A stretch of DNA of 48,094 bases from a virus, in the IMG/VR virus record IMGVR_UViG_3300020214_000025, positions 1 to 48,094 of that record; one strand, 5' to 3'. This document shows positions 11,736 to 36,256 of this stretch, piece by piece (within the stretch, counting starts at the first letter, position 1; each line of letters opens with the position of its first letter). The notes under the pieces were generated by a model that was given only the letters and a program-made list of their open reading frames with translations, made no database searches and was not told the DNA's origin. A program made the translations under genes and the position numbers.

Positions 11736-12299
11736 ATGGCACAAATACCTGCCTTAATTCCAAAAGAAGTGGAAATACAACGACTAAAGAAAATTTGGTT
11801 GATTGTAATTGCAATGGGATCTACCGCAGCTTCGGTTGAAGTAGACAACTTTGTAGACGGATCACTTCATCAAACATCTATCAGGGACTCCGCATTCACA
11901 CCTGCACACTGGTGGCTCTACTCACACTTTGTGGCACTGCCACTAGGTTGGGGTTCAGTTGCGATCTATGATCGCAGAGTACCAATACTTAGAGGTGCTG
12001 GAAACTCTATGAACACTGGATTGAAAATGACCATACTGGGTTATCTTGCAACCATGTTCACAATCGGGGTCAATGAAATGTGGCACTTCTGGTTCGTAGA
12101 GGAAATCTTCGCAGTTCCAAACCACTGGATGTTTAACATGGGAGTAGTCGTAGCTTTCATAGGAGCTCTGGCATATGTCGTAAGAGTATATGCCAGACTG
12201 GTAGAACTTGGTGCAGAAACCCCAAGCGAAAACCCATACGTTGCAGAAATGTATAAGATGGCTCTAGAAGGAAAGCTGTATTCAAGGGCTATTCCATAA
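11736..12299 (+). CDS. amoC: Ammonia monooxygenase subunit C (AmoC)
   Basis: The 187-residue product is a full-length archaeal AmoC, an integral membrane subunit of the copper enzyme that oxidises ammonia to hydroxylamine. It has an N-terminal hydrophobic helix (IWLIVIAMGST) and the conserved segment VDNFVDGSLHQTS. RDSAFTPAHWWLYSHF follows, with Asp51, His58 and His64 in the metal-binding region. VNEMWHFWFVEEI and NHWMFNMGVV come next, then the C-terminal helices. The gene is intact and looks GC-richer and more host-like in codon use than its neighbours, which suggests acquisition from the host. Marine thaumarchaeal viruses are known to carry amoC. It has its own promoter and no amoA or amoB beside it. 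Confidence 0.96.
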   Translation: MAQIPALIPKEVEIQRLKKIWLIVIAMGSTAASVEVDNFVDGSLHQTSIRDSAFTPAHWWLYSHFVALPLGWGSVAIYDRRVPILRGAGNSMNTGLKMTILGYLATMFTIGVNEMWHFWFVEEIFAVPNHWMFNMGVVVAFIGALAYVVRVYARLVELGAETPSENPYVAEMYKMALEGKLYSRAIP

Positions 12300-20083: not shown

Positions 20084-21868
20084 CTATTGCTTCATTACAT
20101 GAATGATTTCTTTTCGTAATGTATTAATCATAAACTGACTCACATCTTCCATAGTCTTACATACTATATATTTCTTTGCGCCAAACAAACCACGCATACT
20201 AGAATCATGATATAGAGTTTCACCAACGCCTATTATGGATATGTTCGGTGTGTTTAGTAAAGCACGTTTGTATGCCTTGATTACTTCTTTTAAAACCGTG
20301 TCCATTTTTAATCTAACGCCACGCCTTATATAGTTTGGATAGCCATCAGTTATGACAATCAACAGCTTCCTTTGCCCAGACATTTCTTTGAGTATATGCG
20401 AACCCATTTCTATACCAAAATGAGTTGGCGTATAACCGCCTACCTGCTGATCTAAATATTTGAGTTCATCAATGTTCTGAAACTTTTGTATGTTCATGTT
20501 GCCACTTGCATCAGAAGACCATGTTATACATTTAAGTTCTATTGTGTTATGTCCTTCTATGGATTTCCATAATGTTGAGACAAGTTGCTTGACCATAGGA
20601 TTATGCAGACGCATACTGCCAGAACCATCAATGCTGACAACTATGGATAACCCATTAGACTTTGCATCATCAATAAAACACTGACCAAACCCATTTGCTT
20701 TCATATTGATATACTCACCAACATCTAATTCATAGCCATCATCAACCATAATGTCTTTACTTTTTTCTTTAAACATTCTGAGAAGCCTTTTCATTTCTTT
20801 TACTACACCTGCGTTTATTTTTGGTTCTATCGGAGCAGAATTTTTCTTGATTGGTTTGACTCTCACTTCGACTTTGTTGATGGGTACATCACCACCCTCC
20901 ATTGCGATTTTTATACTGTTAAGTTTTTCATCGGCACTTTGTTTTAATTCTTCTAGCTTCTTCTCGTAGTTCGCTAGTTCTTCTTTCTCATATGGTTCTG
21001 CCGATACTATGTCAATTTGGTGCAAGCTTTCAATACGGTTTTTATCATCTATTTTTCTTGCAACATTGGATTGACAAGTTGCTTTCTGGAAATCTGAATG
21101 AACCTTGTCTCGTTTTTCCTCGGCCTTTTTTATTTCTTCGTAAGTGGCACGATGGGTTTCACCCTTCATAGACCTTACATTAGAAGATTCAAAAAGAAAT
21201 TCTTCTTTAAGTTTTAAGGCGTTTTTTATTGTTTCGTCAAGATATGGTTTGATTTTGTTAAGCACTAGTATTGAAGCCATTACATCCTTGCCCTCTACAT
21301 CATGAATGAGCTTTCCTACAAATCCATATTTAGAATTGGGGAGAAGGTCTTCTCTAAAGAACCTTTCAGCTAAGAGTGAAAAGGTCGGACTTTCTACAAA
21401 CTCCAAGTCTTTGCCCAGCTTTTTGCGAACCCTGATAAAGTCCTTGAAGTTTCCTAGATATATCTTACCCCATAATGATTCTATTCGCTGATCCTCGATT
21501 ACATTCAAAGCCTCATAATAAATTTTCTTAGCCAAGTCAGATTCTTTTTGTTCTGAATTATTCCACTTTAAAGCCCACTCATTGACAGTTCTGATTGCTC
21601 GTGGATCAAATGACTCAAAGAGTATGTGTGCTAACTCATGATTCATGGCAGTATTGCCATCTATACCTTTAATCTTTGGAAGTGATTTGGTTATATGAAA
21701 TGAACTGTCTTGTTTTAAGAACGCACAGTTAATCCCCTTTCGGTAATCAATGGTTATTGGTTTGTTTACTATTCTGCTGATAATACCAGCTTTCTTCTTG
21801 TCGTAATCTTGTTCTGTCAAGTAATCATCTATGTTTACATCAGTAAGTTTTGGTAACTCGCCTCTCAT
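20084..21868 (-). CDS. VWA-domain protein with HELAH motif, partner of a MoxR ATPase
   Basis: The 594-residue protein (start chosen at the ATG 7 nt behind AGGAG) has two recognisable parts. Near residue 77 is NHELAHILFE, an H-E-x-x-H zinc-binding motif. The middle is charged coiled coil. The C-terminal 190 residues form a von Willebrand A domain with the MIDAS motif SIDGSGSM (Asp414), a conserved Thr in GGYTPTH, and ITDGYPN. It resembles CobT/VWA proteins that work with MoxR- or CobS-type ATPases, which is exactly its neighbour. A longer in-frame ATG at 21919 exists but has no ribosome site. The role is probably chaperone-like remodelling; the target is unknown. Confidence 0.8.
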   Translation of the reverse strand: MRGELPKLTDVNIDDYLTEQDYDKKKAGIISRIVNKPITIDYRKGINCAFLKQDSSFHITKSLPKIKGIDGNTAMNHELAHILFESFDPRAIRTVNEWALKWNNSEQKESDLAKKIYYEALNVIEDQRIESLWGKIYLGNFKDFIRVRKKLGKDLEFVESPTFSLLAERFFREDLLPNSKYGFVGKLIHDVEGKDVMASILVLNKIKPYLDETIKNALKLKEEFLFESSNVRSMKGETHRATYEEIKKAEEKRDKVHSDFQKATCQSNVARKIDDKNRIESLHQIDIVSAEPYEKEELANYEKKLEELKQSADEKLNSIKIAMEGGDVPINKVEVRVKPIKKNSAPIEPKINAGVVKEMKRLLRMFKEKSKDIMVDDGYELDVGEYINMKANGFGQCFIDDAKSNGLSIVVSIDGSGSMRLHNPMVKQLVSTLWKSIEGHNTIELKCITWSSDASGNMNIQKFQNIDELKYLDQQVGGYTPTHFGIEMGSHILKEMSGQRKLLIVITDGYPNYIRRGVRLKMDTVLKEVIKAYKRALLNTPNISIIGVGETLYHDSSMRGLFGAKKYIVCKTMEDVSQFMINTLRKEIIHVMKQ

Positions 21869-21939
21869 TTTGTTTCTCCTAACCTTTGATTTATTATATC
21901 TTTCATTTTTTCTAAACAATCGCCCATGATTACACTCAT
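21865..21939 (-). CDS. Possible coupled microprotein (24 aa)
   Basis: A short frame starts within the end of the ATPase gene and stops in an ATGA overlap with the VWA start. Both junctions are typical of translational coupling, so it may be a leader peptide that sets VWA expression. The product is short and carries no motif. Confidence 0.35.
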   Translation of the reverse strand: MSVIMGDCLEKMKDIINQRLGETK

Positions 21940-22880
21940 CTTAATGTCACTCCAAATATTTCTGTTATTTGTTTCTTAATTAGTTCTCTCTGTGTTGGAT
22001 CACTGAACTTTGAGAGAACCGCATTCTTCAAACTTCTTTCCAAAGGCTTAGTCAGCTCTGAGGCTGTCCACATTCTGTAACACTCTGTAAACTGTACCAA
22101 ATCCCTTGGTGATAGTGAGTAGTCAACATCAGCGTTCAATCTGAGATTATGTATGTTCTGTGTCAAAGTAAGCATGGGTTCGATTACGGTGTCAGGAGGA
22201 ATCTGCTCCCAATTAATTATCTTTTGAAGGTCTGCGTTGCTCGGATATTCCCAAACAGCACCAACAAACCTACTCCTTGCGGCTTCAGCCATTGTATTGA
22301 CACCAGCATAGGTACTTGGGTTCATGGTCGCTATGACAGATAGTATACAACCTTTTTTCAGTCTGTAAACCGCTCCGTTTGCTACTATGGACTTTCTTTC
22401 GTCTGTCACTGAGTTAGTCGCAATCTGCATCTCATGTGTGAGTGCATTAAACTCATCAAAGTACAGCACACCTTTACCGAAGTGATTAGCAACTTCAAGT
22501 GCAGTGGGCAACACGCCTAGTTGGAAATAACTCCCAAACTCATTTATCTGTGGTCTGCCTATAAGGTCACCTATTCTAGTGCCCTCTGAACAGTTCATGG
22601 GTATCAAAGGAATGTTATGTTTGACACACAAGTTATGAACAAGCTGTGTCTTGCCCAATCCTTTATCGCCCTCGATCAGATAATTTTTGCCAGTTAATAT
22701 CATGGCTTCAAGTTCGTCAGCTTCATCTGTTAGTTGGACATATTCTACTCCCCATTTGACAGGAAGATAGTTATCGAACTCTATTTCTGCCGTTGGTACT
22801 TTAAAAATTCGTTCCACGTTTGCAGTTTTGGTCGACTTTAACGACTCTATGTATTCTTGTTTTTCTTTTATGTTGTTCAT
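21936..22880 (-). CDS. MoxR/CobS-type AAA+ ATPase
   Basis: The 314-residue product has Walker A GDKGLGKTQL (71-80), Walker B GVLYFDEFNAL (Asp142, Glu143), sensor 1 IATMNPSTYAG and arginine finger AARSRFVGA. This is the MoxR branch, whose members act with VWA proteins to insert cofactors or remodel complexes. The VWA gene follows directly. Comparable CobS/CobT-like pairs occur in other phages, where their task is not settled. Confidence 0.85.
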   Translation of the reverse strand: MNNIKEKQEYIESLKSTKTANVERIFKVPTAEIEFDNYLPVKWGVEYVQLTDEADELEAMILTGKNYLIEGDKGLGKTQLVHNLCVKHNIPLIPMNCSEGTRIGDLIGRPQINEFGSYFQLGVLPTALEVANHFGKGVLYFDEFNALTHEMQIATNSVTDERKSIVANGAVYRLKKGCILSVIATMNPSTYAGVNTMAEAARSRFVGAVWEYPSNADLQKIINWEQIPPDTVIEPMLTLTQNIHNLRLNADVDYSLSPRDLVQFTECYRMWTASELTKPLERSLKNAVLSKFSDPTQRELIKKQITEIFGVTLR

Positions 22881-28943: not shown

Positions 28944-28978
28944 AAAAAAGTAGGCAGAACTAACTTTCGGTAGTTCTG
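28944..28978 (-). terminator. Intrinsic-type terminator or attenuator
   Basis: CAGAACTA and TAGTTCTG form an 8-bp stem (28955-28962 with 28971-28978). On the minus strand it is followed by a run of six T (28944-28949). It lies before the main accessory operon. Confidence 0.5.
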
Positions 28979-29115
28979 TCCTGTGTTTCTTCGGTTTTCC
29001 TGTATAATTCCTTATACAGTTTTCGCAGTGTAAAGGCGTTCATTTTTACTAGTGGAAATTTTACGTCTAACCACCATAGACGGTAATCATAATCAGAAAT
29101 AATACTTACTGTCAT
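28960..29115 (-). CDS. Small protein of unknown function (51 aa)
   Basis: An ATG-started frame with protein-like composition (SDYDYRLWWLDVKFPLV, then a basic helix LRKLYKELYRK). Its stop lies in the terminator stem. No family is recognised. Confidence 0.4.
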   Translation of the reverse strand: MTVSIISDYDYRLWWLDVKFPLVKMNAFTLRKLYKELYRKTEETQDRTTES

Positions 29116-29142
29116 ATATAACGCACATTTGATTCATGTGGG

Positions 29143-29259
29143 CTAAGTCAACGTGCCTGCCGTACCCGTCATATATACCTTTCGGTAAGTTTGCAAATAC
29201 AGGAGTAAAAGCTCTTGTTTATCATCGAAACGAACAGGTAGATCGTTTACAGCGACCAT
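29143..29259 (-). CDS. Possible small protein (38 aa)
   Basis: The frame (VAVNDLPVRFDDKQELLLLYL) follows the large RNA by about 40 nt. It could be a leader peptide. Support is weak. Confidence 0.3.
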   Translation of the reverse strand: MVAVNDLPVRFDDKQELLLLYLQTYRKVYMTGTAGTLT

Positions 29260-29298: not shown

Positions 29299-29818
29299 AA
29301 AAAATTTGGTAGGGAGGGCTTGTACTGCTACTTGAGTTCTCACCTAAGCCGAATTGCTTCGACTCCCCTCCCGATCCGAAGTTATGCTTGACCGATTTAG
29401 CACCGTTCACCATGTGGCGACCGTTTGTTCATCAGTCAAGTGTTATTAGCTCTTCAAGCTGAACGTTTTCAGAGTCGGTTTTCACCACGACCTTAGTTTC
29501 CAGTCCTCGGTCTACTCCTACTTATTCTGCTAGCTGACCATCAGTTGTCCGTTTAACGTCATACGGCCAGTGCAATTTGTCGGACTCTACTAAATCCGCT
29601 TATCGCATGAGTTTTTACTCCAATCTCGCCTTCTGGAAAAGGTTACCTTAGTCCCACCTTTCAGTAAGACTCGGAGTGTCCTATACGGTAGAGTGCGCTC
29701 TATCGCCCTCCCATAAAGGAGAGCCACACAGCAAAACTCTACATAGGCGCATCGGCATGGATTCTATATAAGCACTTCCACAACATTCCACGCCTGTTCT
29801 CAGTGTGCAAGTGCATAT
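29299..29818 (-). ncRNA. Large structured non-coding RNA, about 520 nt
   Basis: No long frame fits here, base composition is richer in G and C than its surroundings, and paired segments abound. Pairs on the minus strand: 29772-29777 with 29809-29814; a two-part stem 29680-29684/29743-29747 and 29688-29694/29736-29742; a 10-bp stem 29387-29396/29431-29440; a 7-bp stem 29312-29318/29366-29372. The 10-bp stem has a G-U pair on the minus strand that would be an A-C mismatch on the plus strand, fixing the orientation. A TATA box (29843-29851) lies about 26 nt above the 5' end. Six T (29299-29304) follow the last stem. It matches no RNA class I know. Confidence 0.65.
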
Positions 29819-29842
29819 AAAGAAAATTCAATTTTTAAAAAA

Positions 29843-29851
29843 GATATATAT
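29843..29851 (-). promoter_or_regulatory. TATA box of the large RNA
   Basis: The alternating GATATATAT element is placed about 26 nt above the first paired base of the RNA. It may also start the whole minus-strand operon if the 3' T-run is read through. Confidence 0.5.
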
Positions 29852-29864
29852 ACAAATCTACAAC

Positions 29865-30038
29865 TTGGGACGGAATTGGTTCGAGTCCTTGTCCGAAAAT
29901 AAGAAGACTGTTGTTAAAAGATTTTTATAACACTCTCTGCAATACTTGTTTTTGGCAAGAGACAAGGATTCCCTTCGGCACAAGTGGCAGGGCACGTTGA
30001 TATTGCTTTTCATAATCCATAAAGAAAGCCTAATATAA
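29865..30038 (+). other. Weakly supported open stretch with one in-frame stop
   Basis: From a TTG at 29865 the frame reads 21 codons (GRNWFESLSENKKTVVKRFL), a TAA, then 35 more open codons to 30038. A TATA-like TTTTTAAAAAAG lies about 25 nt upstream. The composition is protein-like, but stretches this long occur by chance in AT-rich DNA. Apart from this and the hairpin at 30058 I see nothing in 29865-30167. Confidence 0.2.
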
Positions 30039-30167: not shown

Positions 30168-30368
30168 TCAATTTTTTCCAATTTCGGCCTCGTTTTGACT
30201 AACAAATTCCGTCATAGCTGTTTTTTGCCCTGCGGTTTTTCCCACATCGGCAATTAAAGTTCCTTGAATTCGGAGCAAACATCTGCCTAATCCGTTCTTT
30301 GTATGAAGACCAATCGGTTCATTGCAGGCAATACATGTAATTTTATCTATTTGTTTTGAACCCATCAT
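30168..30368 (-). CDS. Small zinc protein (66 aa)
   Basis: The product has CIACNEPIGLH and a later Cys, a partial zinc knuckle near the N-terminus, then a mixed domain. A TATA-like element lies upstream in the divergent gap with the gene at 30445. Confidence 0.45.
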   Translation of the reverse strand: MMGSKQIDKITCIACNEPIGLHTKNGLGRCLLRIQGTLIADVGKTAGQKTAMTEFVSQNEAEIGKN

Positions 30369-30415
30369 GTTTTAAAACACACTTCCTTACATAAAAATGT
30401 TGTGTTAAAGAAAGC

Positions 30416-30886: not shown

Positions 30887-31450
30887 CTACATTTTTCCGA
30901 TTACTGAGTCCTGTTCTAATTGATCACCCCAAGCATCAAACCCAAAATGTCTTTTTCGTGCAAAGATGTCTATTCGTGGTTCAGGTGACATTGAACGAAT
31001 TAATTCGTAAAAATCATCAGGTTTTGCCGAATGGTTATCTCGTTGTGGTGATGCTTTTAACCAATTAAGTTTTCCACCACCAATAAATTTCTGCATTGGT
31101 TTTCCAAAGAAACCAAGTATGCAAAACTCACTTGCAAATTTATAAGCGAAACATGGTGCTATTCCACTTGGCTTAACCCAAGGTAGTGTTAGATGATAGT
31201 TAACCCCCCAAGATTTGAAAATATTCCAACTGTGTTCAAGCATCTTGTTTGTAATCCACATGTAAACATGACATCCAATGTCAGCATATTCGTTTATTGG
31301 AAATTGTTTTATCTCATCTAACGTCATTGTCTTATATGGTAATTCTTTACGCCTGTTTGGTCTGAGGTTTGTTTTACCCGTTAAGGATATTTCCCAAGGT
31401 GGATCAATAACAATGGTTTTGTAAAATTGTCTAGTGGGTAGATTTTTCAT
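30887..31450 (-). CDS. MT-A70-family N6-adenine methyltransferase (second copy)
   Basis: The 187-residue product has the catalytic DPPW (residues 16-19, IVIDPPWEIS), LPYKTMTLDEI, HVYMWITNKM and the SAM-fold ending ARKRHFGFDAWGDQ. The fold and motif order are those of MT-A70 enzymes that methylate adenine N6. It overlaps the upstream methyltransferase by 4 nt (ATGA). Both copies keep DPPW, so both could be active. The substrate may be viral DNA. Confidence 0.82.
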   Translation of the reverse strand: MKNLPTRQFYKTIVIDPPWEISLTGKTNLRPNRRKELPYKTMTLDEIKQFPINEYADIGCHVYMWITNKMLEHSWNIFKSWGVNYHLTLPWVKPSGIAPCFAYKFASEFCILGFFGKPMQKFIGGGKLNWLKASPQRDNHSAKPDDFYELIRSMSPEPRIDIFARKRHFGFDAWGDQLEQDSVIGKM

Positions 31451-31980
31451 TTGTTTACCTCATTACCCCAAGCATCCCATCCCTCAACTTTTTCCCTAGC
31501 AAACAATTCAATGCGTGGCAAATCTCCGCAAAGTTGGACTATTTTCTCTCTCACCTCGTTTGGTTTTTTACTATGCTCTTCAGGTATAGATTCGACTATT
31601 TGCCTCACGCCTGCATTAATTCTTTGAGGCTTGCCTTTTGTAGCCAATAGACATACTTCTGCGTTTGCCCTAGTCCATCTACCCATTCCCATAAACCAAG
31701 TTCCAAGTCCAGTTTTTTTAACCCAAGTGAAAGCAACTGTCTTATATTCAAACCCCCAAGCTTTAATTATATTAAAACACTCGTTCAGTTTAGGGTAAGT
31801 AACCCACAAGAATAAAATACAGTTGTCGTCAGCTATGTCTTTGACAGGTAAATTTGCTATGTCATTTAATGACATCACTGGATATTTGCAACAAGCTCCA
31901 CGGTTTCCAGCCAGTGCCTTATCATTGTAAGACCAAGGTGGATCTGCATAAATTATTTTGTATTTTTTGTTTGTCAGCAT
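31447..31980 (-). CDS. MT-A70-family N6-adenine methyltransferase (first copy)
   Basis: The 177-residue product has IIYADPPWSYND (DPPW at 13-16), YPVMSLNDIANLP, CILFLWVTYP, TFTWVKK-type motifs and the ending FAREKVEGWDAWGNE. The promoter CTTATATTA ends 20 nt before the ATG. It is only distantly similar to its downstream partner, so the duplication is old or the two were acquired separately. The pair may act as a heterodimer, as MT-A70 proteins do elsewhere. Confidence 0.82.
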   Translation of the reverse strand: MLTNKKYKIIYADPPWSYNDKALAGNRGACCKYPVMSLNDIANLPVKDIADDNCILFLWVTYPKLNECFNIIKAWGFEYKTVAFTWVKKTGLGTWFMGMGRWTRANAEVCLLATKGKPQRINAGVRQIVESIPEEHSKKPNEVREKIVQLCGDLPRIELFAREKVEGWDAWGNEVNK

Positions 31981-35980: not shown

Positions 35981-36256
35981 ATGGGAAGTGAAGTAGTTAC
36001 GCTGCTTGCTCTCGCGGCAGCAGCTCTCGGAGCAGTTGCCTCAACAATACAGGGTTATAAATCCTCAAATGGTGAAGGCTATTCTGCGAAAAAACTTGCG
36101 TCTGCACTAATATCTTCAGTGTTCTTTGCTTTTGGCATTGTAAACATTGCTGGACTACAGAACACGGAAAATAATATTGGCCTAGTAGGCGTAGTAATTA
36201 CGAATGCCTTACTTGGCTATGGTGTAGACAAAGCACATGCCGTTTTGGACAAATAA
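35981..36256 (+). CDS. Small membrane protein (91 aa)
   Basis: Three hydrophobic segments (VVTLLALAAAALGAVA, ALISSVFFAFGIVNIAGL, GLVGVVITNALLGYGV) with Gly/Ala-rich faces. It may be a holin or virion membrane component; it pairs with the preceding gene. A T-run follows the stop. Confidence 0.5.
   Translation: MGSEVVTLLALAAAALGAVASTIQGYKSSNGEGYSAKKLASALISSVFFAFGIVNIAGLQNTENNIGLVGVVITNALLGYGVDKAHAVLDK

Follow-up and report, generated by a model that had tools for sequence, protein, structure and literature searches.

The locus and its neighbours

The 48,094-nt stretch of DNA analysed here (the window; IMG/VR virus record IMGVR_UViG_3300020214_000025) is a virus contig with terminase, MCM helicase, portal and capsid genes, and most relatives are 72-88% identical to it in terminase. 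It also carries an amoC-like gene on the plus strand (11736-12299) that is about 90% identical to copies in two related genomes, G003 and G004, and from this amoC gene we infer that the host probably belongs to the ammonia-oxidising (marine) archaea. On the minus strand, we also noted two MT-A70-type methyltransferase genes side by side (30887-31980), as well as genes for an AAA ATPase and a VWA-domain protein (20084-22880), a pair that is kept throughout the virus group.

The region of interest lies between a gene for a small cysteine-rich protein (30168-30371) and a minus-strand operon. An earlier note, made from the letters of the sequence, had placed here, at 29299-29818, a large minus-strand structured RNA of no known class and had seen no credible gene. 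We agree with both statements: ORFs of 60 aa or more within the RNA have no relatives in the syntenic genomes, no conserved protein-coding frame across the region was found among those genomes, and no Rfam family reached its gathering score anywhere in the window. At the RNA locus and in its relatives, Rfam matches were at chance level only (E up to 1-2). As the note had also stated, RNase P RNA, SRP RNA and tmRNA are not represented, with no match to the Rfam models and no ARAGORN tmRNA call. Covariance models for GOLLD, ROOL and OLE matched nothing in the window, the RNA locus or the relatives, and tRNA genes were not found in the window. A direct search of phage records at the DNA level gave no match; a DNA search of the syntenic genomes returned short pieces only, mostly attributable to chance, and two queries with proteins of the operon found no relatives.

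The minus strand is predicted to fold into an unusually stable structure

Given the composition of the sequence, the minus strand of 29299-29749 is far more stable than expected, with a minimum free energy of -155.4 kcal/mol (z = -5.85) that was equalled by none of 100 shuffles in which composition was held constant. For the plus strand of the same stretch, z was -1.1 and 15 of 100 shuffles were as good. A strand bias was also seen across the longer stretch delimited in the earlier note, 29299-29818 (z = -4.0 for the minus strand versus -1.3 for the plus strand). Among 384 fold windows covering the whole record on both strands (mean z = -0.3, sd 1.4), 29501-29750 on the minus strand ranked third. 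The excess of structure ends near 29750, and the fold of 29751-30000 on the minus strand has a z of only -0.8. A separate stable fold was observed on the plus strand at 36001-36250 (-78.8 kcal/mol, z = -3.1), within a probable coding ORF (35981-36256).

The predicted fold comprises 137 pairs, 24 of which are G-U, and its confident helices are local, reaching across roughly 70 nt at most (Table 1). The 10-bp stem from which the earlier note had read the direction of the RNA, by way of a G-U pair that can form on the minus strand only, is predicted with a mean pair probability of 0.99. The description of the stems as long-range was not borne out, since the longest-range predicted helix (29675-29672/29378-29375) has a probability of just 0.30. 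Direct repeats were looked for, and none of note were found.

Table 1. Positions of the predicted RNA, its helices and the flanking signals in the window.
Feature	Position	Strand	Basis
Predicted structured noncoding RNA, ~445-451 nt	29299-29749	minus	MFE and z against shuffles; no conserved ORF
5´ domain of three helices (29747-29743/29684-29680, 29742-29736/29694-29688, 29724-29717/29712-29705)	29680-29747	minus	Mean pair probabilities 0.89, 0.98, 0.99
9-bp hairpin	29650-29671	minus	Mean pair probability 0.87
Hairpin (29607-29602/29576-29571 with 29598-29592/29587-29581)	29571-29607	minus	Mean pair probabilities 0.92, 0.98
8-bp hairpin with inner pairs	29534-29570	minus	Mean pair probability 0.98
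10-bp stem (29431-29440/29387-29396), one G-U pair minus-strand-specific	29387-29440	minus	Mean pair probability 0.99
3´ domain closed by GGGAGGG/CCCTCCC, adjoining the T run	29312-29372	minus	Mean pair probability 0.99
Conserved DNA element upstream, least variable at TGTGGAA	29772-29818	minus	Alignment of 18 sequences, not all of which carry the RNA
TATATAG, probable TATA box of the RNA	29764-29770	minus	TATA-like box after the conserved element in most relatives
TATATATAT, TATA-like box of the earlier note	29844-29852	minus	Sequence; only some relatives have one
T6 run, probable terminator	29299-29304	minus	Sequence; stretches of relatives also end in T runs
TATA-like box behind the RNA	29171-29177	minus	Sequence; segment aligns with G003, G004, G001
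TATA-like box before the operon	29114-29120	minus	Sequence; segment aligns with G003, G004, G001
First listed ORF of the downstream operon, 73 aa	28607-28828	minus	ORF listing

The RNA is preceded by a conserved DNA element and bounded by a probable promoter and terminator

Upstream of the RNA, an alignment of 18 sequences from the virus group shows the pattern T-run CCATG..ACTTGG.ACGC....ACACTGTGGAAATG in the slot that it occupies in the window. The somewhat longer stretch 29772-29871 on the minus strand and the equivalent slot in 17 relatives constitute strongly conserved intergenic DNA, in which GATTTGTATC-like copies often precede the element. In distant relatives, what comes after the element is either a protein gene or a gene in converging orientation. 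Because it also occurs in these settings, we interpret the element as a probable signal at the DNA level that lies outside the RNA; 29772-29871 could be a regulator or a replication site. For the same reason, 29772-29818 was rejected as a 5´ domain of the RNA. The 5´ end near 29818 suggested in the earlier note thus appears to be about 70 nt off, given the presence of the element in relatives lacking the RNA and the end of the structure excess near 29750.

The TATATAG box at 29770-29764 predicts a transcription start at about 29741-29748, and the first stem opens at 29747. The TATA-like box proposed earlier does exist at 29852-29844, but the box at 29770-29764 is commoner among the relatives. 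Six T residues after the last stem, also part of the earlier description, are found at 29304-29299, and in the window both the first and the last stem stand in register with the TATA box and this T run. Archaeal promoter and terminator signals were assigned by consensus reading, and the promoter, terminator and transcript of the window's RNA are putative; a scan for bacterial promoters and terminators gave chance-level results. The segment behind the RNA that contains both further TATA-like boxes aligns with G003 (65% over 129 nt, E = 7.5e-10), as well as with G004 and G001. We also noted a second possible short RNA or leader on the minus strand at 28955-29180, between two TATA-like boxes, with a terminator-like hairpin at its end (28978-28955).

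The same slot carries a noncoding stretch in a single clade of related viruses

Since gene order is common to the relatives, the equivalent slot could be read in them. A noncoding stretch of 370-740 nt was found in the slot in eight lineages: the window, G003, G004, G001, G005, L225, L228 and L231. The sense-strand z was below -2 in seven of the eight (G003, -3.8; G004, -5.2; G001, -2.8; G005, -2.2; L228, -4.3; L231, -6.6; and the window, -3.8 for the 473-nt cut including the TATA box that was used in this comparison), and the excess was weak in L225 (-1.1). For G001, the antisense strand beat the sense strand in fold score.

In a tree built from the glutamine-amidotransferase-like protein encoded next to the slot, the eight lineages with the RNA form one clade (support 89/91), such that a single gain suffices. 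In the nearest outgroup relatives, L221, L227 and L233, a protein gene lies directly behind the upstream element, and behind the RNA of L228 and L231 comes a relative of the protein encoded after the element in the RNA-less viruses. This arrangement makes the RNA look like an insertion that separated the promoter element from the gene.

The body of the window's RNA aligns with none of the relatives, though the flanks align, and no near relative of this particular RNA was found in the sequence collections searched; L302, the contig with the closest neighbouring protein, stops before the RNA. Structure-driven pairwise alignments of the window's RNA beat decoys for G004 and G003, though not for G001, and were not sensible end to end. 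They were kept out of the covariation evidence because such alignments create apparent compensation. The shared slot, flanks, TATA box, T run and over-stability suggest that the window's RNA is orthologous to those of the relatives.

Compensatory changes support the structure in the relatives

The earlier note had named compensatory changes in aligned relatives as a test. Such changes were indeed found in the relatives that carry the slot, but the window's own sequence could not be aligned. G001, G003, G004 and G005 share a 3´ hairpin in which a conserved core, GGUAGGAAA ... UAUAACU.UC, lies inside a stem of variable letters. Across the four relatives, both sides had changed in 7 of 16 pairs and 92% of cells pair, and the covariation score was 0.604, compared to 0.02-0.10 with slid partners and with none of 500 shuffles reaching this value; covariation here draws on three to four sequences and the counts are alignment-dependent. 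One G-U pair, present in all four relatives, is possible on the RNA sense strand only. Matches to a model of the hairpin were confined to this virus group, and with filters off the model found nothing in the window (best score 6.9 bits). The hairpin pattern also gave 14 scattered matches in cellular genomes, which we ascribe to chance given the unrelated organisms and weak model scores; the viral contig L358 was likewise judged a chance match.

Additional evidence came from near-clones. The RNA of G005 (also L172) was compared with those of L216 and L220. Over 3,058 nt, G005 and L216 differ by six substitutions and one indel, every one of them within a 61-nt stretch in one helix of the RNA, and the changes include A-U to G-C, U-A to C-G and A-U to G-U at pairs that had been predicted from G005 alone. 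Such clustering suggests template switching in a hairpin or local recombination. Further double changes in this helix were seen in L225. Collectively, covariation is strong for the relatives, and the exact fold of the window's RNA stands as a prediction.

An independent RNA is the best reading of the locus

In our judgement, a real structured RNA gene is very likely to be present at this locus. The best reading, to which we give a probability of roughly 0.6 based on sequence and on analogy, is an independently transcribed, fast-evolving structured RNA that would act in trans. Host RNA polymerase would start from the TATA box at 29770-29764, behind the conserved DNA element, and stop at the T6 run, freeing the RNA as its own transcript, while the downstream operon would be transcribed from its own TATA boxes. 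The RNA would have arisen or arrived once, between the promoter and the first genes of the operon, in a virus ancestral to the single clade, and it would have retained a heavily base-paired architecture while the sequence itself changed with hardly any constraint. By analogy with GOLLD and ROOL, it would most likely work in trans during infection, as a folded scaffold or as a protein- or ribosome-binding RNA.

The main rival, which we regard as unlikely, is a long structured leader that controls read-through into the minus-strand operon in cis, as an attenuator or switch, with no free RNA. As expected for attenuators and riboswitches, the RNA sits between a promoter element and an operon and ends in a T run, and the upstream element leads straight into a gene in relatives without the RNA. 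Such a leader would be expected to have no promoter separating it from the operon and to offer alternative terminator and antiterminator pairings. However, the TATA-like boxes at 29177-29171 and 29120-29114 intervene before the operon, in a segment alignable with relatives, and the body is long and fast-evolving, unlike a ligand-binding switch. Of the two alternatives offered in the earlier note, it is these new boxes that make the independent RNA the better fit.

We consider it improbable that the stretch in the window is a decaying or unrelated remnant occupying the slot, with a real RNA in the relatives and an incidental fold here. The unalignable body and the lack of the 3´ hairpin conserved elsewhere are in line with a remnant, but the z of -5.85 at constant composition, the register of the promoter, stems and T run, and the retention of a noncoding slot stretch in all eight lineages of the clade argue against it. 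A hairpin-rich DNA-level site (a replication origin, packaging or recombination site) with no RNA is more improbable still, for although RNA-less genomes conserve the neighbouring element 29772-29818 in the manner of a DNA site, the structure excess is strand-specific, and both the invariant G-U pair of the relatives and their A-U to G-U change are sensible on one strand only.

Relation to known large RNAs and significance

Bacterial viruses are known to encode large, ornate RNAs of unknown function. GOLLD RNAs, many of which exceed 800 nt, often lie near tRNA genes and form an RNA-only multimer; ROOL RNAs are encoded in tailed viruses and proviruses, often near tRNA islands; and OLE is a bacterial RNA class with protein partners. 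GOLLD has a conserved 3´ region and a variable 5´ region, and ROOL, a large virus-encoded structured RNA of unknown function, has been proposed to act untranslated (PMC12286853). The window's RNA resembles GOLLD and ROOL in kind and is a member of neither. Like GOLLD, it is a large, heavily folded noncoding RNA of a tailed virus, with the 3´ hairpin as the best conserved part in the relatives, but it is only about 450 nt long, has no Rfam match, belongs to an archaeal virus, has no tRNA nearby and is far less conserved in sequence. Like ROOL, it is a large structured RNA encoded by a virus, whereas the host domain differs and there is no Rfam match or tRNA island. As to the genomic setting of ROOL, the terminase and portal genes of the window indicate a tailed virus, but no tRNA gene was found in it. 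OLE is likewise a large structured RNA adjoining an operon; in contrast, the RNA described here is viral and without an Rfam match, and the protein partners of OLE are not encoded in this virus as far as tested.

Full-text literature searches returned no report of a large ornate RNA from an archaeal tailed virus, and the gene described here is possibly the first for a large folded RNA to be seen in such a virus. More tentatively, it could represent a new archaeal class, a virus-encoded large RNA that would form an RNA-only or RNA-protein assembly during infection. This class would be an analogue of GOLLD and ROOL that originated independently, with sequence turnover so rapid that only the slot, the flanks and the fold give it away. 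Such RNAs are missed by sequence or Rfam searches, and this family was revealed by its flanks and not by the RNA. With eight lineages, a single gain, a conserved slot and compensating near-clones, the role of such RNAs can be addressed in a concrete set of viruses, whose probable archaeal hosts are important to ocean nitrogen turnover.
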